A stretch of 64,000 bases of DNA from Lawsonibacter sp. (GTDB lineage: Bacteria > Bacillota > Clostridia > Oscillospirales > Oscillospiraceae), in the NCBI GenBank assembly GCA_022791995.1, contig JAAWAD010000073.1:1-64000 (forward strand). The letters run 5' to 3'. This document shows, piece after piece, positions 47,981 through 59,353 of the stretch. The position numbers and the translations under genes were made by a program. Under the pieces are notes generated by a model that ran no database searches, was not told where the DNA came from, and saw nothing but the letters and a program-made list of their open reading frames with translations. The number at the start of each line of letters is the position of its first letter. Position 1 is the first letter of the stretch.

Positions 47981-48964
47981 ATGAAACACAAAATGAAGTG
48001 GATGCCCCTGGTACTGGCGGTATGTCTGCTGTGCGCCTGTGCTCCGGCCCAGCCCGGGGAGAGTGGGGCGGAGGAGACCATCTATGTGGACCAGGTGGTC
48101 ATGGAGGAGATTTCCCTGGAGGACGAGGCGGTCCCCCTAGCTGCCTCCCCTGTGGCCCAGGACACAATGCTGCTTCCAGTGGCGTCGGGCACCGTAGTGA
48201 AGCGGACTGACCGGGCGGTCATTGACTACTCCAACGTGGCTGACGGCTATGTGATGGTTCAGTTTACCGCCTCCACCGACAAGCCCCTCCGGGTTCAGAT
48301 TGTGGGCCCCACTACCACCTATGTATATTTTCTCACCGCGGGGCAGTGGACCACCTTCCCCATGTCTGACGGCAATGGGACTTATAAGGTCAATGTGCTG
48401 GAGGGGACATCCAGCGGCAAGTACGCCCTGGTCTGTTCTGAGAGCATTTCTGTCACGCTGAGCAACGAGTTCGCCCCCTTTATCCGTCCAAATCAGTATG
48501 TGGACTACAGCGGAGCCACGAATACCCTTCAGAAGGCAGAGGAGTTGACTCGGGGGCTCACGGACCCTCTGGCCAAGGTGGAGAAGGTCTATGACTTTGT
48601 GGTGAACAACCTGACCTACGATACCCAGAAGGCGTCCTCGGTGAAAAGCGGATACTTGCCCGCTCTGGACAGTGTGCTTGCCTCCAAGAAGGGCATCTGC
48701 TTTGATTACGCCGCTCTGATGGCCGGAATGCTCCGCAGCCAGGGGGTTCCCTGCAAGCTGGTGGTGGGCTATGCCGGTACTGCGTACCACGCCTGGATCA
48801 GCGTCTGGACAGAGGACCAGGGCTGGGTGGACGGCGTTATTTTCTTCGACGGCTCTGTGTGGCAGCGGATGGATCCCACCTTTGCCTCCTCGGGAAAGAG
48901 CAGCGAAGCTATTATGAAGTATATTGGGGACGGAAGCAACTACACAGCCAAACAGTTCTATTGA
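47981..48964 (+). CDS. Transglutaminase-like domain lipoprotein
   Basis: Lipobox CLLCAC; KGICFDYAALMAGMLRSQGVPCKLVVGYAGTAYHAWISVWTEDQGWVDGVIFFDGS. Confidence 0.9.
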   Translation: MKHKMKWMPLVLAVCLLCACAPAQPGESGAEETIYVDQVVMEEISLEDEAVPLAASPVAQDTMLLPVASGTVVKRTDRAVIDYSNVADGYVMVQFTASTDKPLRVQIVGPTTTYVYFLTAGQWTTFPMSDGNGTYKVNVLEGTSSGKYALVCSESISVTLSNEFAPFIRPNQYVDYSGATNTLQKAEELTRGLTDPLAKVEKVYDFVVNNLTYDTQKASSVKSGYLPALDSVLASKKGICFDYAALMAGMLRSQGVPCKLVVGYAGTAYHAWISVWTEDQGWVDGVIFFDGSVWQRMDPTFASSGKSSEAIMKYIGDGSNYTAKQFY

Positions 48965-49042
48965 CAGCGGCCTGATCATTTCGGTCTGTGCCTCGCCTTG
49001 GAGGAGGCGGAGCATTGGAGCGAAATTGGACGAAAAAGTAAA

Positions 49043-49088
49043 CGCCTGAAAATGAGTCGGTGGATTTTCCACGGGCTCATTTCGGGCG
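49043..49088 (+). promoter_or_regulatory. Long leader hairpin directly upstream of the gspF-like RBS
   Basis: CGCCTGAAAATGAG ... CTCATTTCGGGCG (about 13 bp, one bulge) with inner TGGA/TCCA, ending 4 nt before the AGGAGG. Confidence 0.55.
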
Positions 49089-49102: not shown

Positions 49103-50143
49103 ATGAAAAAAACGATTTCCAGCGAAGAGATCGCCTCTCTGACCCTAGAGCTGTCCCTTTTGCTCCACGCCGGTGTGGGGATGGGGGACGCCCTCTCGCT
49201 GCTGGGGGAGGACTGCGCCCCGGAGCATAAGGCTATGCTGACCGATCTGTCAGACCAGGTGGACGGGGGGGAGCTGCTGTCCGCCGCTCTGCGGAGCACC
49301 GACCGGTTCCCTGCCTATGTCTGCGGTTTGGTAGAGGTGGGAGAGCAGACCGGACGTACAGAGGAGGCCCTGTCCGCTTTGTCCCGGTATTACGAGGAGC
49401 GGGTACGGCTGGCCCGGCGGGTGCGCAGCGCGCTGCTGTATCCCGCCGTCATGCTGGGCTTGATGCTGGTGGTGATTGGGGTGCTGCTGGTGAAGGTGCT
49501 GCCCATTTTTGACGATGTATATGCCTCTCTGGGCGGGCGTCTGTCCGGGGTGGCGGGGGGCCTGCTGGCTCTGGGCCGGCAGCTGGACCGGATGATGCCT
49601 GTTCTGTGGGGCCTGCTGGCTGTGCTGGCCCTGTTTGCCCTGGCCTTTGCGGCCTCTCAAACCTTCCGGGATAAGGTCTCTGCCTGGTTTGCCCGGGTGT
49701 GGGGAGACCGAGGGGTTGCCCGCAGCCTGAATACCGCCCGGCTGGCTCAGGCTATGGCTATGGGAATGGCCAGCGGCCTGCCCCTGGAGGAGGCGGTTGT
49801 CCTGTCCGCCAATCTGATGGAGGATGTGCCCGCTGCCAAGGGGCGCTGCATGGACTGCGGTACCCGCCTGGGAGAGGGGGAGCCTCTCGGTAGTGCGCTG
49901 AAAGAGAGCGGCCTGCTGCCGGCTAACCACTGCCGCCTGCTGGAGCTGGGGCAGCGCAGCGGCGCGGGAGATACCTCCATGGCCAAGATTGCCCAGGATT
50001 TGACCGAGGAGAGCGAGGCTGGCCTGGAGTCGGTGGTCAGCCGGGTGGAGCCCGCCCTGGTGCTGGTGTGTTCCCTGCTGGTGGGATTGGTTCTGCTGTC
50101 GGTGATGCTGCCTCTTATGCACATCATGGCGGCCATTGGGTGA
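49103..50143 (+). CDS. Type II secretion/type IV pilus inner-membrane platform protein (GspF/PilC family)
   Basis: LTLELSLLLHAGVGMGDALSLL; VEVGEQTGRTEEALSALSRYYEE; VSRVEPALVLVCSLLVGLVLLSVMLPL. Confidence 0.93.
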   Translation: MKKTISSEEIASLTLELSLLLHAGVGMGDALSLLGEDCAPEHKAMLTDLSDQVDGGELLSAALRSTDRFPAYVCGLVEVGEQTGRTEEALSALSRYYEERVRLARRVRSALLYPAVMLGLMLVVIGVLLVKVLPIFDDVYASLGGRLSGVAGGLLALGRQLDRMMPVLWGLLAVLALFALAFAASQTFRDKVSAWFARVWGDRGVARSLNTARLAQAMAMGMASGLPLEEAVVLSANLMEDVPAAKGRCMDCGTRLGEGEPLGSALKESGLLPANHCRLLELGQRSGAGDTSMAKIAQDLTEESEAGLESVVSRVEPALVLVCSLLVGLVLLSVMLPLMHIMAAIG

Positions 50144-50147
50144 GGGT

Positions 50148-50471
50148 ATGAGAAGACGAAAAAGCGGGCTGTGGCCCCTGCTCCGGGGTCTGCTGCTGCC
50201 CCTGGCGGCTGTGCTGATCCTGGTGGGCTTTTCCACGGCCCTGGACAGCCTGGATGCGGGGAGGGCGGAGGAGAACCAGCGGCAGCTGGAGGAGACGCTG
50301 CGCCGGGGCTGTCTGGCCTGTTACGCCGCCGAGGGGGTCTATCCACCCAGTCTGGAGTACTTAGAGGAGCACTATGGCATACAGATTGACCAGAAGCGGT
50401 ATACCGTCCGGTATACGGTTTATGGAGGAAATCTGCTGCCTGACATCACTGTGTTGGAGAATCAGCCATGA
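50148..50471 (+). CDS. Pseudopilin-like protein (divergent)
   Basis: One N-terminal TM then CYAAEGVYPPSLEYLEEHYGIQIDQKRYTVRYTVYG, a minor-pilin-like head. Confidence 0.65.
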   Translation: MRRRKSGLWPLLRGLLLPLAAVLILVGFSTALDSLDAGRAEENQRQLEETLRRGCLACYAAEGVYPPSLEYLEEHYGIQIDQKRYTVRYTVYGGNLLPDITVLENQP

Positions 50472-51016
50472 GGAGACGGAGTGTGCAATCCCATACCGAT
50501 GGTTTGGCGGCCCTGTTGCTTTTTGGGATCTTTGCCGTCTGTGTGCTGGCAGTGCTGCTTACCGGGGCGGACGCCTACCGGCACCTGACCCAGCGGGATC
50601 AGGCGGCCTACAGCCGCCGGACCTGTGTCCAGTATGTGGCAACCCGCGTCCGGCAAGCCGACCGCCAGGGCTTTATTTCTGTCGTTCCCTTCGGCCAGGG
50701 GGAGGCCCTGGTGCTGCGAGAGGATGAGGCCTTTGAGACTAAGCTGTACTGCCAGGACGGCTGGCTGATGGAGCTGTATACCTATGCAGGGGCGGATATG
50801 GCCCCGGAGGATGGTACGCCCCTGATGGAGGCCGCCGCCCTGTCCTTGGCGCTGGAGGACGGACTGCTGACGGTGGAGGTCACCACCTCCGCCGGAGAGA
50901 CGGATACCCTGTGCCTGAGCCTGCGCAGCAGCGCCCCGGAGTCCGTTGATACCCCGCAGCCATCCCCGGCGGAGCCCGCCCCAATTCCGGGGCTTGGAGA
51001 GGGGGTGGCTCTGTGA
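50468..51016 (+). CDS. DUF4860-like pseudopilin-type protein
   Basis: Short basic N-terminus + DGLAALLLFGIFAVCVLAVLLTGADAYRHLTQRDQAAYSRRTCVQYVATRVRQAD; translationally coupled. Confidence 0.75.
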   Translation: MRRRSVQSHTDGLAALLLFGIFAVCVLAVLLTGADAYRHLTQRDQAAYSRRTCVQYVATRVRQADRQGFISVVPFGQGEALVLREDEAFETKLYCQDGWLMELYTYAGADMAPEDGTPLMEAAALSLALEDGLLTVEVTTSAGETDTLCLSLRSSAPESVDTPQPSPAEPAPIPGLGEGVAL

Positions 51017-51441
51017 AGAGCAAGGCGCCGCTTTCCCTGATGGAACAGATGGTGATGCTGGCCGTCTTCGCCCTAGCTGCTGCCCTGTGCCTCCAGGCAT
51101 TTGTGAAATCAGATGCCATTTCCCGCCGAAGCCAGGCCCGGGACCGGGCCGTGGTCCTGAGCCAGACGGCGGCGGAGGTCCTCCAGCACTACAGCGGGGA
51201 CCTGGACGAGACTGCGCGGTATCTGGGATGTACCGCAGGCGCGGAGGAGCTGCATGTCCAGTATGATGAGGATTGGAATGTGGTGGAGGGCGGAGCGTAT
51301 CATTTGTATATCCGCTATGAGCGCTCGGATATTCCAGGCTGTGGATTGGCTGTTGTCCGGGTGATTGAGGGTAGCGGCGAGTGGGACGAGAAGAATACGC
51401 TGGTTGAACTGCCGGTGGCTTGGCAGGAGGTGCTGCCCTGA
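51013..51441 (+). CDS. Pseudopilin-like protein with retained Glu5
   Basis: MKSKAP|LSLMEQMVMLAVFALAAALCLQAFV aligns to the pilin FTLIE.. N-helix; overlaps upstream ORF. Confidence 0.65.
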   Translation: MKSKAPLSLMEQMVMLAVFALAAALCLQAFVKSDAISRRSQARDRAVVLSQTAAEVLQHYSGDLDETARYLGCTAGAEELHVQYDEDWNVVEGGAYHLYIRYERSDIPGCGLAVVRVIEGSGEWDEKNTLVELPVAWQEVLP

Positions 51442-51869
51442 TGGAACCGAAGAAAAACACTGGTTTTTCACCCCCCACCACGGGGGGCGTATCCCTGCTG
51501 GTGGTCTTTGCGGTGCTGTGCCTGACGGTGTTCGCCCTGCTCAGTCTGGCCACGGTCCAGGCAGACAGCCGCCTCAGCGAGGCATCTGCCCGGGCGGTGT
51601 CCGACTATTACGCCGCCGACTACGAGGCCCAGTGTATTCTGGCCCGGCTGCGGGCCGGTGAGCGCCCGGAGGGCGTGACATATTCTGGAAGCGGACTGCT
51701 GTATGCCCTGTACGCAGTTCCCATCTCGGATACCCAGGAGCTCCAGGTGTCGGTGATCCTACAGGGAATTGCGGACCGAGAGTACATCATCCAGCAATGG
51801 AAGGTGGCCTCCACCCAGGAGTGGGTGGCGGACGACGGCCTGGATTTGTGGGACGGCGGGCTGTTCTGA
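51441..51869 (+). CDS. Pseudopilin-like protein (GspK-like N-terminus)
   Basis: TTGG|VSLLVVFAVLCLTVFALLSLATVQADSRLSEASARAVSDYYAADYEAQCILARL; TGATGG overlap. Confidence 0.6.
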   Translation: MEPKKNTGFSPPTTGGVSLLVVFAVLCLTVFALLSLATVQADSRLSEASARAVSDYYAADYEAQCILARLRAGERPEGVTYSGSGLLYALYAVPISDTQELQVSVILQGIADREYIIQQWKVASTQEWVADDGLDLWDGGLF

Positions 51870-51930
51870 TTTGACGTTCTGAGAAAAGAGATGTCCAGGG
51901 GAATCCTGCTGGAAAAAGGAGAGTGCGGCA

Positions 51931-52989
51931 ATGGCACAGTTGATAGACTATTTGAAACGTTCTGTGGACGATCAGGCCTCTGACCTGTTTATTGTGGCGG
52001 GGGGGCAGGTGTGCGAAAAGCTGGAGCAGCACATGACCCCCATCAGTGAGGAGAAGGTGTTTCCCAAGGAGACCGAGGTGCTGATTCGAGAGCTCTATAC
52101 CCTGGCAGACCGGCCGATGGAGCACTTTCTGAGCCGGGGGGATGACGACTTCTCCTTCTCGGTGCCCGGTCTGGCCCGGTTCCGGGTGAACGCCTACCGG
52201 CAGAGGGGCTCCCTGGCGGCGGTGGTTCGGGTGGTGGCCTTTGACATCCCCTCCTGGGAGAAGCTGCGCATTCCAGAGCAGGTGATGAATCTTGCCAATG
52301 TGTCCCACGGCATGGTGCTGGTCACTGGCACGGCGGGCAGCGGCAAATCTACCACCCAGGCCTGTATCCTGAACCAGATCAATGAGACCCGTGAGTGCCA
52401 TATTATCACGCTCGAGGACCCCATCGAGTACCTGCACCGGAACAAGCGGAGCATCGTCAGCCAACGGGAGATTGCCATTGACACAGAAAATTACCTCTCC
52501 GCCCTCCGGTCCTGCCTGCGGCAGGCTCCCGATGTCATCCAGCTGGGGGAGATGCGGGACCCGGAGACCATCCATACCGCCATGACAGCGGCAGAGACGG
52601 GACATCTGCTGATTGCAACCCTTCACACCAAGGGGGCGGTGAACACCATTGACCGGATTGTGGATACCTTCCCCAGCGGCCAGCAGGATCAGATTCGGAT
52701 GCAGCTTTGTATGGTGCTGCGCACGGTGGTGTCTCAGCAGCTGCTCCCTGGGGCTAAGGGGGATCTGGTCCCCGCCTTTGAGATTATGCAGATGAACAAC
52801 GCCATCCGCAGCATGATTCGAGAGAATAAGACGCATCAGATCGACAATGCCATTGCCGCCGGCAGCAGCGAGGGTATGATGACCATGGACCAGTGCATCC
52901 TGTCCCGGTTCAAGGCCGGGCTGATTACAGCGGAGACCGCTTTGAACTTTGCGGACAACCCCGACCAGCTTCGCCGGCGCATGGGATGA
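51931..52989 (+). CDS. PilT-class type IV pilus/T2SS ATPase
   Basis: Walker A GTAGSGKST, Asp box ITLEDPIEYLH, Walker B region VIQLGEMRDPET, TLHTKGA; 352 aa and no tetracysteine region. Confidence 0.92.
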   Translation: MAQLIDYLKRSVDDQASDLFIVAGGQVCEKLEQHMTPISEEKVFPKETEVLIRELYTLADRPMEHFLSRGDDDFSFSVPGLARFRVNAYRQRGSLAAVVRVVAFDIPSWEKLRIPEQVMNLANVSHGMVLVTGTAGSGKSTTQACILNQINETRECHIITLEDPIEYLHRNKRSIVSQREIAIDTENYLSALRSCLRQAPDVIQLGEMRDPETIHTAMTAAETGHLLIATLHTKGAVNTIDRIVDTFPSGQQDQIRMQLCMVLRTVVSQQLLPGAKGDLVPAFEIMQMNNAIRSMIRENKTHQIDNAIAAGSSEGMMTMDQCILSRFKAGLITAETALNFADNPDQLRRRMG

Positions 52990-53026: not shown

Positions 53027-53062
53027 GGCAGAGGCGGCAAGCAGCCGCCTCTGCCGTTTTTT
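53027..53062 (+). terminator. Rho-independent terminator
   Basis: GGCAGAGGCGGC aagca GCCGCCTCTGCC gTTTTTT. Confidence 0.9.
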
Positions 53063-53226: not shown

Positions 53227-53889
53227 TTACTGGGGGTTGTTTTGAATCGCGTTCAGGGAGCGGATCATGGAGTAGTTGATGTGCAGAATGACCGTGTCCC
53301 GGATGTCGTGTTCATTTTCCCGGAGAAGGGCATCGATAATGGCACAGTGCTGAGCCAAATCATCCTCCCGGGCGTTGACAGCATTTTTTAGTGCGGCGTA
53401 CATGGCCAGACGGGCCTGGATGAGCATCAGACGGTTGTACATTTCCATTAAAATCTTGTTGTCTGTGATGGAGATCAGGTAGGCGTGAAAGTCGATATCC
53501 AGCAGAAACCGGTCCAGGTCGGGGGCATCCGCCGACTGCTGGAAGCTCTGCTGGTACTGAATCAGCCGTCCCTTGGAGTAGAGGGTTTTGTACTCCTCAA
53601 TGACGGTGGGCTCAATCAGCTTTCGGGTCTGATACAGGTCCTTGACGCTTTTCTCCGTCATCAGGGAGATGCGCATTCCCTTGCGGGGGAAGATGTCTAC
53701 CATCCCCTCCTTTTGCAGCAGCAGCAGGGCCTCCCGCAGGGGGGTACGGCCAAATCCGGTCTCTTCCACCAGCAGCTTTTCGTTCAGCTCCTGCCCGGGC
53801 AGGTATTCGCAGCGCATAATTTTCTGATACAGATAGTCATAAGCCTGGTTTGCCATCGGGCGGATCTGTTTTTCGGGCATATTCTGCAC
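53227..53889 (-). CDS. GntR family (FadR-type) transcriptional regulator
   Basis: AYDYLYQKIMRCEYLPGQELNEKLLVEETGFGRTPLREALLLLQKEGMVDIFPRKGMRIS plus FCD-like domain. Confidence 0.93.
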   Translation of the reverse strand: MQNMPEKQIRPMANQAYDYLYQKIMRCEYLPGQELNEKLLVEETGFGRTPLREALLLLQKEGMVDIFPRKGMRISLMTEKSVKDLYQTRKLIEPTVIEEYKTLYSKGRLIQYQQSFQQSADAPDLDRFLLDIDFHAYLISITDNKILMEMYNRLMLIQARLAMYAALKNAVNAREDDLAQHCAIIDALLRENEHDIRDTVILHINYSMIRSLNAIQNNPQ

Positions 53890-54004
53890 CCTCTTTTCCG
53901 TTTTTCTGAGCGAACATCTCTCTGATCGAGGGGCCCAGTCAATTTATACAAATATCATACACAAAGTTTGGTGAAAAAGCAAGTGGGCAAAGGATAAAAA
54001 TTGG

Positions 54005-54048
54005 TTGATTTATATTAGATGCGATGATATAATACCTGTGATATATCA
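54005..54048 (+). promoter_or_regulatory. Promoter with overlapping GntR-type operator
   Basis: TTGATT N17 TATAAT (54028-54033), then palindrome TGATATATCA (54039-54048) over the predicted +1. Confidence 0.65.
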
Positions 54049-54089
54049 AAGAAAACCCAGCATCCGAAAGGAAAGGAGCCGCATCCCTC

Positions 54090-55184
54090 ATGAACACAGC
54101 AGATACCAAGCTAAAGGATATCCGCCTGTATCAGGCAATCAGCAAAATCAGTCAGCCCATTGCTGACTCCACCCATGACATCAGCAAGATCGCCTTCTAC
54201 ATCCTGGAGGTGGAGACCGCCGGCGGCGTGACCGGACAGGGCTACCTCCTCAGCTTCCACTACAGCCCCAACGCCATCGAGGGGGCGTTGAAGGACCTGC
54301 GCCGGTTCATCCTGGAACGGGACTACCATGTGTACGAGACTCTCCAGGTTCAGCGGGACTACGAGCAGGAAAGCGAGTATTTCGGGATTGTCGGTCTTCA
54401 GCGCTGGGCCCTGGCTACCCTGAATGTGGCCATGTGGGACGCCTGGAGCCGGACAAACGGCCAGCCCATCTACCGGATGTTCGGCTGTCACCGCAGGCCC
54501 ATCCCCGTCTATGGCAGCGGCGGCTGGATCAGCTACAGCGACGAAGAGTTGGTGGACGAGGTGGTCAACTACAAGAAGCGGGGCTTCACCGCGGTGAAGA
54601 TCAAGGTGGGCAGCCCGGACATGGAGCGGGATATCCGCCGGCTCCATCTGGTGCGGGAGGCCGTGGGCCCCCAGGTGAAGATTATGATGGACGCCAACCA
54701 GGGCATGGATGTGCCCAGCGCCGTCAAGCTCATCAGCCAGGTGGAGGATCTGGGCATCTTCTGGTTCGAGGAGCCGGTGGTGAACACCGACTTCGAGGGC
54801 TATGCCACCATCCACGCCAAGACGAAGATCAGCCTTGCCATGGGGGAGCGAGAGTACAGCACTGTAGCTCTGCGGGAGCTCATCGGACGCCGGGCCCTGG
54901 ATCTGTGGCAGCCTGACCTGATCCGCCTGGGCGGAGTGGAGGCCTGGCGGGACAGCGCCGCTCTGGCCAACGCCTACAATATCCCTGTGCTGCCCCACTA
55001 CTATAAGGACTATGATGTCCCCCTGCTGGCTACCGTGGCCAACCCCTACGGAGCGGAGAGCTTTGACTGGATCGACGCCATCATTGACCAGCCCATGACC
55101 ATCGACAACGGCTTTGCCCTGCCCCGGGCGGGTGAGGGCTGGGGCTTCCGCTTCTTGCCCCAGGCCATGACCGAGGTAAAGTGA
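54090..55184 (+). CDS. Mandelate racemase/muconate lactonizing (enolase) superfamily enzyme
   Basis: KIKVGS (KxK), MMDANQGMDV, WFEEPVVNTD, AMGEREYS, DLIRLGGVEAWRDSAALANAYNIPVLPH. Confidence 0.92.
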   Translation: MNTADTKLKDIRLYQAISKISQPIADSTHDISKIAFYILEVETAGGVTGQGYLLSFHYSPNAIEGALKDLRRFILERDYHVYETLQVQRDYEQESEYFGIVGLQRWALATLNVAMWDAWSRTNGQPIYRMFGCHRRPIPVYGSGGWISYSDEELVDEVVNYKKRGFTAVKIKVGSPDMERDIRRLHLVREAVGPQVKIMMDANQGMDVPSAVKLISQVEDLGIFWFEEPVVNTDFEGYATIHAKTKISLAMGEREYSTVALRELIGRRALDLWQPDLIRLGGVEAWRDSAALANAYNIPVLPHYYKDYDVPLLATVANPYGAESFDWIDAIIDQPMTIDNGFALPRAGEGWGFRFLPQAMTEVK

Positions 55185-55193
55185 GGCGTTTTC

Positions 55194-56243
55194 ATGGACA
55201 CAATGCACGCCATAGTCATTGAGGCCCCGGGAAAGGCCGCCGTGCTGGAGCGCCCGATTCCCCAGCCCAAGGAGGGGGAGGCCCTGCTGAAAATGCTGGT
55301 GGGCGGGGTGTGCGGAAGCGATTTGGCCTCCTACCGGGGGCAGTCGGCCTATGTCAGCTACCCCCGCACCATCGGCCATGAGTTCGCCGCCCAGGTGGTG
55401 GAGACGCCCCCCAACGAGTTTGGCATCCGTCTGGGGATGGTAGTGACAGGCAACCCCTATTTCAACTGTGGCCAGTGCTACAGCTGCCGCCGGGGGTTTG
55501 TCAACGCCTGTGTGAACAACCAGACAATGGGAGTTCAGCGGGAGGGGGCCTTCTCCGAGTACTTCACCATGCCGGTGGAGCGCCTGTACGACGGACAGGG
55601 TATTGCCCCCAAGGCCCTGGCGCTGGTGGAGCCCTTCTGCATCAGCTATCACGGAGTCAGCCGGGTCCGCCCTCAGCCGGGGGAGAAGGTTCTGGTAATG
55701 GGAGCGGGAGCCATCGGTACCTTGGCGGCAGTGGCTGCCAAGTGCTTCGGCGCCCAGGCATATATCACCGATGTGGCTCCCGGTAAGGTAGAGGCGGCCG
55801 TGCAGGACTTTGGCCTGGACGGGGGCTTTGTCAACGACAGTCCCCAGGCCCTGGAGCGCTTCCGTCAGGAGATCACCGGAGAGGACGGTTTTGACGTCAC
55901 CGTGGAGGCGGTGGGGGCCCCGGCCACCTTCCTGGACTGTGTCTGGGCGGCGGCCAGCCGGGGCCGTATGGTGGTCATCGGTGTGGCCAAACACAGCGCC
56001 GATTTCAACTTCCTGGAGCTCCAGCGCAAGGAGCTGACTATCACCGGCAGCCGGGGGGCCACCAAAGAGGATTTTGCCGCCGTACTGAAGCTGGTGCGGG
56101 AAGGGGCGGTGGATCTGACACGGCTGCTCTCCCGGACCTACCCCAGCCGAGAGGCCGCTGCGGCCTTTCAGGACATGGATCAACACGCCGTGCAGATTAC
56201 CAAGGCGGAATTTGCGTTTTGTGATCCGACCTCTGAAATATAA
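55194..56243 (+). CDS. Zinc-binding alcohol dehydrogenase (sorbitol/galactonate-DH-like MDR)
   Basis: GGVCGSDLASYRG, IGHEFAAQV, GNPYFNCGQCYSCRRGFVNAC, VLVMGAGAIGTLAAVAAK. Confidence 0.92.
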   Translation: MDTMHAIVIEAPGKAAVLERPIPQPKEGEALLKMLVGGVCGSDLASYRGQSAYVSYPRTIGHEFAAQVVETPPNEFGIRLGMVVTGNPYFNCGQCYSCRRGFVNACVNNQTMGVQREGAFSEYFTMPVERLYDGQGIAPKALALVEPFCISYHGVSRVRPQPGEKVLVMGAGAIGTLAAVAAKCFGAQAYITDVAPGKVEAAVQDFGLDGGFVNDSPQALERFRQEITGEDGFDVTVEAVGAPATFLDCVWAAASRGRMVVIGVAKHSADFNFLELQRKELTITGSRGATKEDFAAVLKLVREGAVDLTRLLSRTYPSREAAAAFQDMDQHAVQITKAEFAFCDPTSEI

Positions 56244-56254
56244 AAAGTTTCGGG

Positions 56255-56316
56255 CCGCCCTTTTCAAAGGGCGGTGGGTCCAGGGCAAAGCCCTGGCGGG
56301 TTTGGGCGGAGCCCAA
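56255..56316. repeat. Triple-hairpin intergenic repeat (REP-like)
   Basis: CCGCCCTTT-tc-AAAGGGCGG, CCAGGGC-aaa-GCCCTGG, TTGGGC-gga-GCCCAA in tandem. Confidence 0.7.
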
Positions 56317-56399
56317 GGCGTTCGTTGCCAGTTGTACTCACGATACCCCTGCACCGAAGAGAACCAAATCAACACTGAAAAAGAAAGGAAAAAACTGTC

Positions 56400-57494
56400 A
56401 TGAAAAAGAAACTTGCACTCCTGCTCTCCGCGGCTCTGTGTCTGAGCCTCCTGGCCAGCTGCGGCGGGAAACCCGCCTCCTCTGGCGGAGCCACTTCCAG
56501 CGGCGGGACCTACGGCGGAACTTCCTCCGGCGCTGCCAGCTCCACCCCCGCGACCGCCCCCTCCGGGGACACTGTCACCATCCAGATCGGCTTCGAGAAT
56601 ACGCTGGAGGAGCCGATTGGCCAGGCTGTGCAGAAGTGGGCTGAGCTCCTGGAGGAGCAGAGCGGCGGCGCCATGAAGCTGGAGCTGTTCGCCAACAGCG
56701 CCCTGGGCTCCAAGAGTGAGCTCATTGACCAGATGGTTATGGGCGAGAACATCATCACCATCGCTGACGGTGCATTTTATGCGGATTACGGCGTGCCTGA
56801 TATGGGCATCATGTACGGTCCCTTCTTCTTTGAGACCTGGGACGACGTGTGGGCGCTTCTGGACAGCGACTGGTACGCCGAAAAGTGCCAGGAGCTGGCG
56901 GACAAGGGCCTGACCATCCTAGCCTCCAACTGGGTATACGGCGAGCGCGAGCTGATGACCAAGACCAAGGTAGTCACCCCCGCCGATGTGGCTGGACAGA
57001 AGATCCGTCTGGCCAACAGCCAGATCTATGTGGAGGGCTTCAACGCTCTGGGCGCCACCGCTGTGCCTATGGCCCTGGGCGATGTGTACACCGCACTTCA
57101 GAACGGCACCCTGGACGGTGTGGAGAACCCCCTGTCCACCCTGTACGGCCAGAGTTTCCAGGAGGTCACCAAGTACATCCTGATGACCGGCCACATCAAG
57201 AACTTCACCACCTGGTGCATCGGCACCAGTTACCTGAACACCCTCACCGCTGACCAGCAGGCGCTGCTGGTGAAGACCGGTGAGGAGGCTGGCCTGTACA
57301 ACAACGAGCTTCAGGCCGCTGCCAACGACGACTATGCCCAGAAGATGATTGACGCCGGCGTGGAAATCACAGAGCTCACCGAGGAGCAGATCGCCGAGTG
57401 GAAGGCTGCCGCCCAGTCCTTCTATGAGATGGGCAGCACCTTCGGCTGGAGCGACGGTCTGTACCAGACCACCCAGGCCGCGATGGGAAAGTAA
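56400..57494 (+). CDS. TRAP transporter substrate-binding protein, DctP family (lipoprotein)
   Basis: Lipobox LLASC; GGAMKLELFANSALGSKSELIDQMVMGENIITIADGAFYADYGVPDMGIMYGPFF. Confidence 0.95.
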   Translation: MKKKLALLLSAALCLSLLASCGGKPASSGGATSSGGTYGGTSSGAASSTPATAPSGDTVTIQIGFENTLEEPIGQAVQKWAELLEEQSGGAMKLELFANSALGSKSELIDQMVMGENIITIADGAFYADYGVPDMGIMYGPFFFETWDDVWALLDSDWYAEKCQELADKGLTILASNWVYGERELMTKTKVVTPADVAGQKIRLANSQIYVEGFNALGATAVPMALGDVYTALQNGTLDGVENPLSTLYGQSFQEVTKYILMTGHIKNFTTWCIGTSYLNTLTADQQALLVKTGEEAGLYNNELQAAANDDYAQKMIDAGVEITELTEEQIAEWKAAAQSFYEMGSTFGWSDGLYQTTQAAMGK

Positions 57495-57516
57495 TTCTCC
57501 TTAAAAACACGGAACC

Positions 57517-57546
57517 GGGAGGAGGGGCCGGAGGGCTCCTCCTCCC
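57517..57546 (+). terminator. Intra-operon stem-loop between SBP and small permease genes
   Basis: GGGAGGAGG (12-nt loop) CCTCCTCCC; no U tract. Confidence 0.65.
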
Positions 57547-57569
57547 ACGACTACCGGAGGACTTGAATC

Positions 57570-58070
57570 ATGAAAAAAATAATCAACGCCCTGGTCAAGG
57601 TGGAGATCATCGCCGCCGGCGCCATTCTGGTGGCCCTGATTCTCTGCACCTTCGGCGGCGTCATCATGCGCTATTGCTTCAGCAAGCCCTTCACCTGGGA
57701 GGAGGAGTTCCAGCTGGCCTGTATGGTGTGGATCACCTTCCTGGCGGCCTCTGTAGCGTTCCACACCCGGAGCCATGTGGCCATCGAGATCCTGGTGGAC
57801 ATGTTCCCCAAGCGGCTCCAGCAGGTGGTGGAGGTGTTCATCTTTCTGGTCATGTGGGGCATTATGGGCTACTTCTTCTTCCGCAGCATTGACTTTATCA
57901 GCGTGATTGCCAGCACCAGCCGGAAGACACCCATTCTGAAAATTCCTTACGCCTGGATCTACGGGGTGGCCCCGGTTTCCATCGTGCTGATGCTGATCAG
58001 CTACACCTATATGACCATCCAGGACGTTCTGGCCCGGCGCAGCGCCGGGGGAGAGGAGGGGAAGGCATGA
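57570..58070 (+). CDS. TRAP transporter small permease, DctQ family
   Basis: FTWEEEFQLACMVWITFLAASVAFHTRSHVAIEILVDMFP. Confidence 0.94.
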   Translation: MKKIINALVKVEIIAAGAILVALILCTFGGVIMRYCFSKPFTWEEEFQLACMVWITFLAASVAFHTRSHVAIEILVDMFPKRLQQVVEVFIFLVMWGIMGYFFFRSIDFISVIASTSRKTPILKIPYAWIYGVAPVSIVLMLISYTYMTIQDVLARRSAGGEEGKA

Positions 58071-59353
58071 ATACACCGGTTATCGCTATGGTTGTGGCGC
58101 TGCTGGTTCTCCTCTTTCTGAAGGTCCCGGTTTTTGCCTCGGTGCTGGGGGCCTCGGTGGTCTATTTCATCCTCAACCCCAACATTACCCCCGCCGTCTT
58201 CGGCCAGCAGGCCATTACCGGGACGGAGAGCGTCACTCTGTTGGCCATTCCCTTCTTTGTGTGTGCCGGAGTGCTGATGAACTACACCGGCGTCACTAAG
58301 CGAATTATGGATTTCTGTGCTGTGGTCACCGGGCGGATGTTCGGCGGCCTGTCCCAGGTGAACATTCTGTTGTCCACCCTGATGGGAGGACTGTCCGGCT
58401 CTGCCCTGGCCGATGCCGCTATGGAGGCCAAGATGCTGGTGCCCGAGATGGAGCGCCACGGTATCAGCAAGGCCTTCTCCACGGTGGTCACCGCCGCCTC
58501 CAGCATGATTACCCCCCTGATTCCCCCGGGCATCGGCCTGATCCTCTACGGCTGCATCGCCAACGTCTCCATCGGCAAGCTGTTCATTGCGGGCTTCGGC
58601 CCGGGAATCCTGCTGTGCGTTACCATGATGTTCATGGTGTCCCGCATTTCTCACAAGCGGGGGTATATGCCTCTGCGGAAGGAGAAGATGACCGGCTCCA
58701 TGTTCTGGAGGTCCTTCCGTCCCGCTGTGCTTCCCCTGTGCCTGCCCATTATCATCATCGGCGGGGTGCGTCTGGGGATCTTCACCGCCACCGAAGCCGG
58801 CTCTGTGGCCATTGTCTATGCCGCTGTGCTGGGTCTGTGGTACCGGGAGCTGGGAGTCAAGGAGTTTGCCACCAGCCTGAAGGAGACCCTGACCACCACC
58901 TCCTCCATCATGCTGATTGTGGCGGCAGCCTCCACCTTCTCCTGGATTCTGACCAAGGAGCGTATCCCCCAGCAGTTTACCGAGTGGCTAATCTCCGTGA
59001 TTGACAACAAGTGGGTTTTCCTTGTGGCGGTGGACATCTTCCTCATCTTTGTGGGCATGTTTGTAGAGGGCAACGCCAGCATGATCGTCCTGGTTCCCCT
59101 CTTCGCCCCCACCGCTACGGCTTATGGCATCGACCCCATCCATTTCGCTATGGTATTTATCTTTGCCAATGCCATAGGAGCCTTTACGCCTCCTATGGGC
59201 ACCCTGATGTTTGTCACCTGCGGCGTCACGGGCTGCAAGACCAAGGACTTCGTGAAGGAGGCTGTGCCCTTTTACATTCTCCTGTTCGGCTGTCTGCTGC
59301 TGCTGACCTTTGTTCCCGTATTCTCCACAGGGCTGGTGAATCTGATCTACTGA
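58067..59353 (+). CDS. TRAP transporter large permease, DctM family
   Basis: LLAIPFFVCAGVLMNYTGVTKRIMDFCAVVTGRMFGGLSQVNILLSTLMGGLSGSALADAAMEAKML; ATGA overlap. Confidence 0.95.
   Translation: MNTPVIAMVVALLVLLFLKVPVFASVLGASVVYFILNPNITPAVFGQQAITGTESVTLLAIPFFVCAGVLMNYTGVTKRIMDFCAVVTGRMFGGLSQVNILLSTLMGGLSGSALADAAMEAKMLVPEMERHGISKAFSTVVTAASSMITPLIPPGIGLILYGCIANVSIGKLFIAGFGPGILLCVTMMFMVSRISHKRGYMPLRKEKMTGSMFWRSFRPAVLPLCLPIIIIGGVRLGIFTATEAGSVAIVYAAVLGLWYRELGVKEFATSLKETLTTTSSIMLIVAAASTFSWILTKERIPQQFTEWLISVIDNKWVFLVAVDIFLIFVGMFVEGNASMIVLVPLFAPTATAYGIDPIHFAMVFIFANAIGAFTPPMGTLMFVTCGVTGCKTKDFVKEAVPFYILLFGCLLLLTFVPVFSTGLVNLIY

Follow-up and report, generated by a model that had tools for sequence, protein, structure and literature searches.

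A conserved membrane machine of seven genes, made up of type IV pilus (T4P) parts, is found in many gut Clostridia, and both its existence and its conservation are firm observations. The member described here lies in a 64,000-nucleotide stretch of Lawsonibacter sp. DNA (the window; GenBank assembly GCA_022791995.1, contig JAAWAD010000073.1, positions 1 to 64,000), in which a platform protein, four pilin-like bitopic proteins, a PilT-clade ATPase and a transglutaminase-core lipoprotein (TG) make up one conserved locus. We put at about even the chance that this locus encodes a reduced, self-standing machine within the type IV filament (T4F) superfamily, originating from a system like the type IVa pilus (T4aP), in which the minor pilins stay uncleaved, PilT acts alone and the whole is coupled to TG.

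All seven genes are on the plus strand, in the order TG (327 aa, 47981–48964, ATG at 47981), a GspF/PilC/ComGB-type platform protein of 346 aa (GspF; 49103–50143), p2 (107 aa, 50148–50471, ATG start with an alternative TTG at 50136), a DUF4860 protein (50468–51016), p4 (51013–51441), p5 (51441–51869) and the PilT-clade ATPase (352 aa, 51931–52989). The genes from GspF through p5 overlap or nearly abut, and a gap of 61 bp precedes PilT. An earlier reading of the DNA letters, referred to as the sequence-only reading, had described six packed open reading frames at 49103–52989 closed by a strong terminator at 53027. Every frame was recovered at those coordinates, and the operon end is marked by a plus-strand intrinsic terminator (53027–53055) consisting of a 12-pair stem followed by GTTTTTT; the extent of six genes was too narrow, because the seventh gene, TG, directly upstream, had been overlooked.

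One genome per species from 84,980 species was scanned with an alignment of p2, which yielded 250 relatives, and among the best 80 loci, all clostridial, the order TG-GspF-p2-DUF4860-p4-p5-PilT is exact in 71. The remaining nine comprise five loci cut by contig ends, two with TG beyond PilT (L127 and L183) and two without TG (L134 and L161). Furthermore, the six-gene set occurs in the same order each time in 12 of 40 relatives' genomes besides that of the window, with TG adjoining it in 11 of the 12 and a contig ending before the TG position in the other (G028). This recurrence of the same genes in the same order indicates that the observation is not due to chance, and a lack of synteny, which the sequence-only reading had named as a ground for giving up its proposal, is not what is seen in the window's clade. 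Class-wide sampling placed p2 in 44 of 391 genomes and in 26 of 223 genera, and variant gene orders were read from 20 loci of this sample, including PilT first and TG last (L260), TG after PilT (L263) and TG on the opposite strand (L250). Two loci, L251 and L255, have no adjacent PilT, and a PilT-sized ATPase match lies approximately 40 kb away. Two locus copies, L127 and L174, share one assembly name (isolate S31_Bin2), and in one of them TG has moved beyond PilT. A decaying remnant without function is scarcely credible as an account of the locus: the loss of cleavage sites, the TG remnant of one genome (G001) and the absence of the ATPase in another (G036) would suit it, whereas most of about 90 loci are intact, dN/dS is below 1 (about 0.15–0.5) for all seven genes in simple NG86 estimates of the window against five relatives, Glu+5 is invariant, and both the catalytic motifs and a promoter-hairpin element are conserved. 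For the window's clade, these dN/dS values rule out a decaying locus.

The genome of the window is 80.4% complete; within it, the locus PilT is the single PF00437 match over cut-off, and profile searches found neither an A24 prepilin peptidase (PF01478) nor a pilin with the N-methylation motif (PF07963). Because of this incompleteness, the genomes of relatives matter. Four locus-bearing genomes of the same genus (G005, G006, G019 and G021; 95–98% complete) yield no ATPase over cut-off besides that of the locus and lack the A24 peptidase. The peptidase is likewise absent from 33 of 50 further locus-bearing genomes, 32 of which also have no second PF00437 ATPase at a cut-off of at least 50 bits; an extension ATPase of the PilB/GspE/ComGA type, a core T4F component, was found neither in these 32 genomes nor in that of the window. 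In the complete, single-contig genome G236, the locus PilT is the sole PF00437 match, and a home-made profile that finds known A24 peptidases in control loci detected none in 1.6 of its 2.97 Mb. The A24 search does detect the enzyme in T4P- or Tad-bearing relatives, and 12 of 14 control genomes likewise gave a match. Moreover, A24 tracks a second T4F ATPase, which is present in 16 of 17 A24-positive genomes versus 1 of 33 A24-less ones (Fisher test, 6e-11, a value that ignores phylogenetic dependence); the peptidase therefore appears to travel with other systems and not with this locus. The absence of PilB, prepilin peptidase and canonical pilins, originally read from the locus alone, extends to the 80.4% of the genome available and, for PilB and the peptidase, to most locus-bearing relatives, and the complete T4P elsewhere that would have made these genes accessory is missing from most host genomes of the window's clade.

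These counts bear directly on the view that the locus is an accessory to a normal T4P and borrows PilB and PilD encoded elsewhere, which we regard as very improbable. Distant relatives with canonical prepilin sites do have PilB or Tad, and 17 of the 50 host genomes possess an A24 peptidase, but the 33 genomes without it, nearly all of which have no second ATPase either, and the four near-complete genomes of the same genus, which have neither, speak against it; the window genome could accommodate such borrowing only via its missing ~20%. A borrowed assembly ATPase and peptidase, one of the options offered by the sequence-only reading, is rejected for the window's clade on the absence of A24 and of a second ATPase from most host genomes, and it fits the distant relatives that combine canonical sites with PilB or Tad.

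The four small genes had been described as coding for proteins with one transmembrane segment each. Rather than being unrelated, p2, DUF4860, p4 and p5 look like a minor-pilin (tip or priming) set. None of them reaches the cut-off of any canonical pilin profile, and Pfam profiles gave no usable matches for p2, p4 and p5 across all relatives, so structure prediction was applied to p2 and p4. The AlphaFold model of p4 (pLDDT 92.0) consists of a long helix and a four-stranded head, and its predicted fold is GspI-like, with Foldseek matches to EpsI/GspI 2ret (probability 0.96, TM 0.76 by target, at a weak E-value of 0.24) and to the XcpV/XcpW entry 5bw0 (probability 0.90). The p2 model (pLDDT 86.7) has a long helix and a small head, and its best Foldseek match is the type IV pilin 4d40 (probability 0.87, at a weak E-value of 0.47); p2 carries the motif ACYAxEGxYPP..YL..YG, has no Glu+5 and is devoid of a class III signal in every member examined, including those of loci with canonical siblings. 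The DUF4860 protein (PF16152, 74.9 bits) resembles minor pilins of the GspJ/ComGG kind, with a weak NF041014 ComGG match in 23 of 47 relatives, and its residue at the Glu+5 column is Asp in the window and D/E in 69 of 80 loci. As for p5, it is GspK/PilX-like on the basis of a weak PF14341 PilX_N match (E 0.049), and it is last among the pilin genes and has no Glu+5; the absence of Glu+5 and a 3′ position are features of GspK-type pilins (PMC5207764).

The cleavage site sets the window's clade apart. Its p4 proteins have Pro at −1 in 78 of 79 cases and Glu+5 in all (SKAP-LSLME in the window), whereas prepilin leaders are described as having Gly or Ala at their end without exception (PMC10191384). 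By contrast, the Gly or Ala at −1 that marks a class III signal is present in divergent relatives: p4 of L252, L254, L257, L261, L260 and L263 carries a canonical site (for example KGFTLIE, with the cut between G and FTLIE), PF07963 matches p4 in all four divergent members scanned (L252, L254, L260 and L263), which come from genomes with PilB, and the genomes of this group carry PilB or Tad-type ATPases. In the window's clade, p4 and DUF4860 have lost the Gly-1 cleavage site yet keep the acidic +5 residue. The simplest reading is a series that would begin with a module subject to cleavage and dependent on PilB and PilD and end with one that is uncleaved and stands alone, its direction being suggested by the sharing of the canonical motif with other T4F systems. 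Alternatively, the locus might encode a conventional minimal T4F system whose pilins are processed by a peptidase that PF01478 misses. This we consider unlikely; the conserved Gly pair of p5 and the Glu+5 retained in p4 are compatible with processing, but the nearly universal Pro-1 of p4 departs from the known leader ends, and the A24 search works in the relatives and control genomes mentioned above.

The platform protein (PF00482, 142 bits) lacks the first ~57 positions of the GspF model (TIGR02120 matched at 57–399) and has the length of ComGB, whose profile NF041012 it matches nearly end to end (5–331 of 332). For the ATPase, the TIGR01420 (PilT/PilU) score is 401 bits versus a cut-off of 319; on the PilB profile the protein reaches 116 against a cut-off of 676, and it is also far under the GspE and ComGA cut-offs. 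In a tree of 32 ATPases, those of the loci group as a single clade (100/100) on the side of PilT, with PilB and CpaF apart, and the join of this clade to individual PilTs has moderate support. Profile score, the single PF00437 match and tree placement thus agree with the initial assignment of the sole ATPase to the PilT class. Compared with six canonical PilTs, 75 locus ATPases show sixteen fixed (at least 90%) differences, including the changes from GPTGSGKS to GTAGSGKS in Walker A and from RQDPD to RQAPD; the locus ATPases form a distinct PilT subclade with an altered Walker A. An extra PilT paralogue of the same clade was observed in G063 (L213:7791-8840), in which both the His box (STLYTMGAAS) and the Walker B region (MEELRD) are altered; searches with the window's proteins found no other locus genes beside it.

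The main rival to our interpretation is a re-purposed PilT, turned into a motor for assembly or for both directions, with the locus making a real, possibly short filament of uncleaved or otherwise processed pilins; it carries a real but minor probability. The 16 clade-fixed changes, with P-T replaced by T-A in Walker A, would suit a new role, a single Tad motor, CpaF, powers both extension and retraction (PMC11300603), and PilT structures can take the extension-type CCOCCO state (PMC6858323). However, the Walker A and RQDPD changes do not represent convergence on PilB, because PilB shares the canonical PilT residue there; in addition, there is no canonical major pilin, and p2 is without Glu+5 or a class III signal in every relative examined.

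TG (PF01841, 83.6 bits) has a lipobox (LLCAC) and a Cys-His-Asp triad (GICFDYA, YHAW and RMDP) that is conserved in the alignments. It is found in 76 of the 80 loci, in 74 directly upstream of GspF and in two just beyond PilT, and a clear ortholog is confined to locus-bearing genomes except for one remnant. This remnant (L212:8310-8483, G001:C93) lies at a contig end, runs in frame into a different membrane protein and is not accompanied by any further gene of the locus; it probably arose by deletion, or else the contig is chimeric.

The TG–GspF junction also holds a composite of a promoter-like element and a hairpin. In 21 loci, a hairpin lies downstream of CTTTACGAA-N15-TTAAAATGGG, with constant spacing (TTTACG-N17-TAAAAT), and the −10 of the TTTACG-N17-TAAAAT element runs into the hairpin; the loci include L109, L114, L118, L122, L129, L135 and L141. 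The composite element occurs nowhere else in 1.1 Mb of the same loci, and 1.6 Mb of G236 has none. Over 18 loci, 233 of 234 cells of the stem are paired; its inner half shows compensatory changes, and several pairs are G-T. The window's equivalent (49026–49088, plus strand) is diverged and a weak promoter match, TTGGAC (49026) and GAAAAT (49048) being separated by N16, and its hairpin (49043–49088) has a minimum free energy of −32.5 kcal/mol (z −6.2). No Rfam family reached the gathering threshold in the window stretch, and L141 gave sub-threshold matches only. A divergently transcribed BTAD regulator adjoins TG in 21 of 71 assessable loci, including L114, L118, L129, L135 and L141, and shows an association with the CTTTACGAA box (16 of 25 versus 5 of 46, with relatedness ignored); that of L087 (2267-3466, minus strand) contains a sub-threshold GGDEF-like region.

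The neighbourhood and the motor bear on one more possibility, that the locus is a Com-like DNA-uptake machine in monoderms, which appears quite improbable. It would account for the ComGB-length platform, the ComGG-like minor pilin and the ComEC gene in the genome. Nevertheless, the ATPase is of the PilT type and not ComGA, and the neighbour is a transglutaminase-fold lipoprotein and not a Com gene; since ComEC occurs in 39 of 40 relatives regardless of the locus, its presence provides no link to DNA uptake. Downstream of the terminator, translations of 53227–58076 read as a minus-strand GntR-type regulator beside enolase-superfamily, zinc alcohol-dehydrogenase-like and TRAP-type transporter genes, which looks like an unrelated sugar-acid catabolic cluster.

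For the reduced, self-standing machine that we prefer, we infer the following mechanism. The pilin-like proteins would remain uncleaved and membrane-anchored, and the platform would hold them via the +5 acid; the title of a study cited in PMC5207764 describes pseudopilin Glu5 as essential for recruitment by the assembly platform of the type II secretion system (T2SS). Their heads would assemble without an extension ATPase, in the manner reported for T4aP priming complexes, whose incorporation does not depend on PilB (PMC7541494). PilT might then turn, pull or disassemble the complex, which would not be a long pilus but work like a short piston or ratchet. The machine is probably non-filamentous, and TG, outside the membrane, may be its enzymatic partner or substrate. 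The sequence-only reading had suggested a stripped-down machine in which one ATPase does everything; of this, a minimal system that stands alone and whose sole ATPase is of the PilT class is retained, and the division of labour it implied is one of several possible mechanisms.

Several points weigh against the preferred reading. The interaction of the pilin-like proteins, their non-cleavage and the movement are predictions from sequence and models. The Foldseek E-values for p2 and p4 (0.24–0.47) are weak despite good probabilities, by which pilins rank first, p5 keeps its Gly pair ahead of the hydrophobic stretch (GG-xSLLV), and there may be a peptidase of an unrecognised type. Family f25 has the six genes without an adjoining TG. 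In G036, a genome that is 100% complete, GspF and the four pilin-like genes are present (L098:8503-11265) with no PF00437 match and no TG; because these five genes are kept without the ATPase, some lineages may do without the motor.

A review names a pilin, a prepilin peptidase, an extension ATPase and a platform as common to all T4F systems (PMC10191384), and comparison with the individual systems shows partial likeness in each case. The locus shares with the Com pilus (ComGA-ComGG, ComC) a minimal monoderm design, a single ATPase, a ComGB-length platform and a small pilin cluster in one operon, but ComG has the ComGA extension ATPase, the ComC peptidase and a cleaved major pilin, whereas the locus has a PilT-type ATPase in place of ComGA, no peptidase in place of ComC, Pro-1 in p4 and the TG lipoprotein. 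Its PilT and PilC homologs, its minor-pilin-like set and, in divergent members, G-FTLIE sites and PilB-bearing genomes recall the T4aP, although most host genomes are without PilB, PilD or a recognisable major pilin. The GspI-like predicted fold of p4, the GspK features of p5 and the acidic +5 of DUF4860 recall GspI-GspJ-GspK of the T2SS, from which the locus differs in having no GspE-type ATPase, no Gly-1 in p4 and no GspG-like canonical major pseudopilin. The Tad pilus likewise has one ATPase, but CpaF belongs to another ATPase clade and Tad has its own peptidase, TadV; neither a second ATPase over cut-off nor an A24 peptidase was found in the 80.4% of the window genome available. The MSHA pilus locus similarly has no peptidase, but MSH loci without their own are always accompanied by another peptidase-encoding system (PMC6668835), which most genomes with the present locus are not. 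The locus thus fails the defining features of the T4aP, Com, T2SS and Tad systems and is best called a variant inside the T4F superfamily. In a library of open-licence papers, as distinct from the whole literature, no described system matching it was found, nor any paper on DUF4860, on T4P together with transglutaminase and Lachnospiraceae or on PilT in Oscillospiraceae.

Two of the four T4F core components are missing in dozens of genomes, and the intermediates keep the canonical cleavage site. The locus offers a natural experiment to learn whether PilT suffices by itself, whether complexes of minor pilins function in the absence of a major pilin and what role Glu+5 has when there is no new N-terminus to pair with. 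DUF4860 gains a likely identity as a minor-pilin-like protein. The prospects are evenly balanced that the locus represents a distinct, widespread clostridial machine, in which uncleaved, membrane-anchored minor pilins and a PilT-type sole motor operate a surface transglutaminase-fold enzyme without a peptidase or an extension ATPase. If true, this would be a class of machine without two of the four parts regarded as universal in T4F systems, and the locus is an unusual case in which to test the ways that pilus motors can operate.

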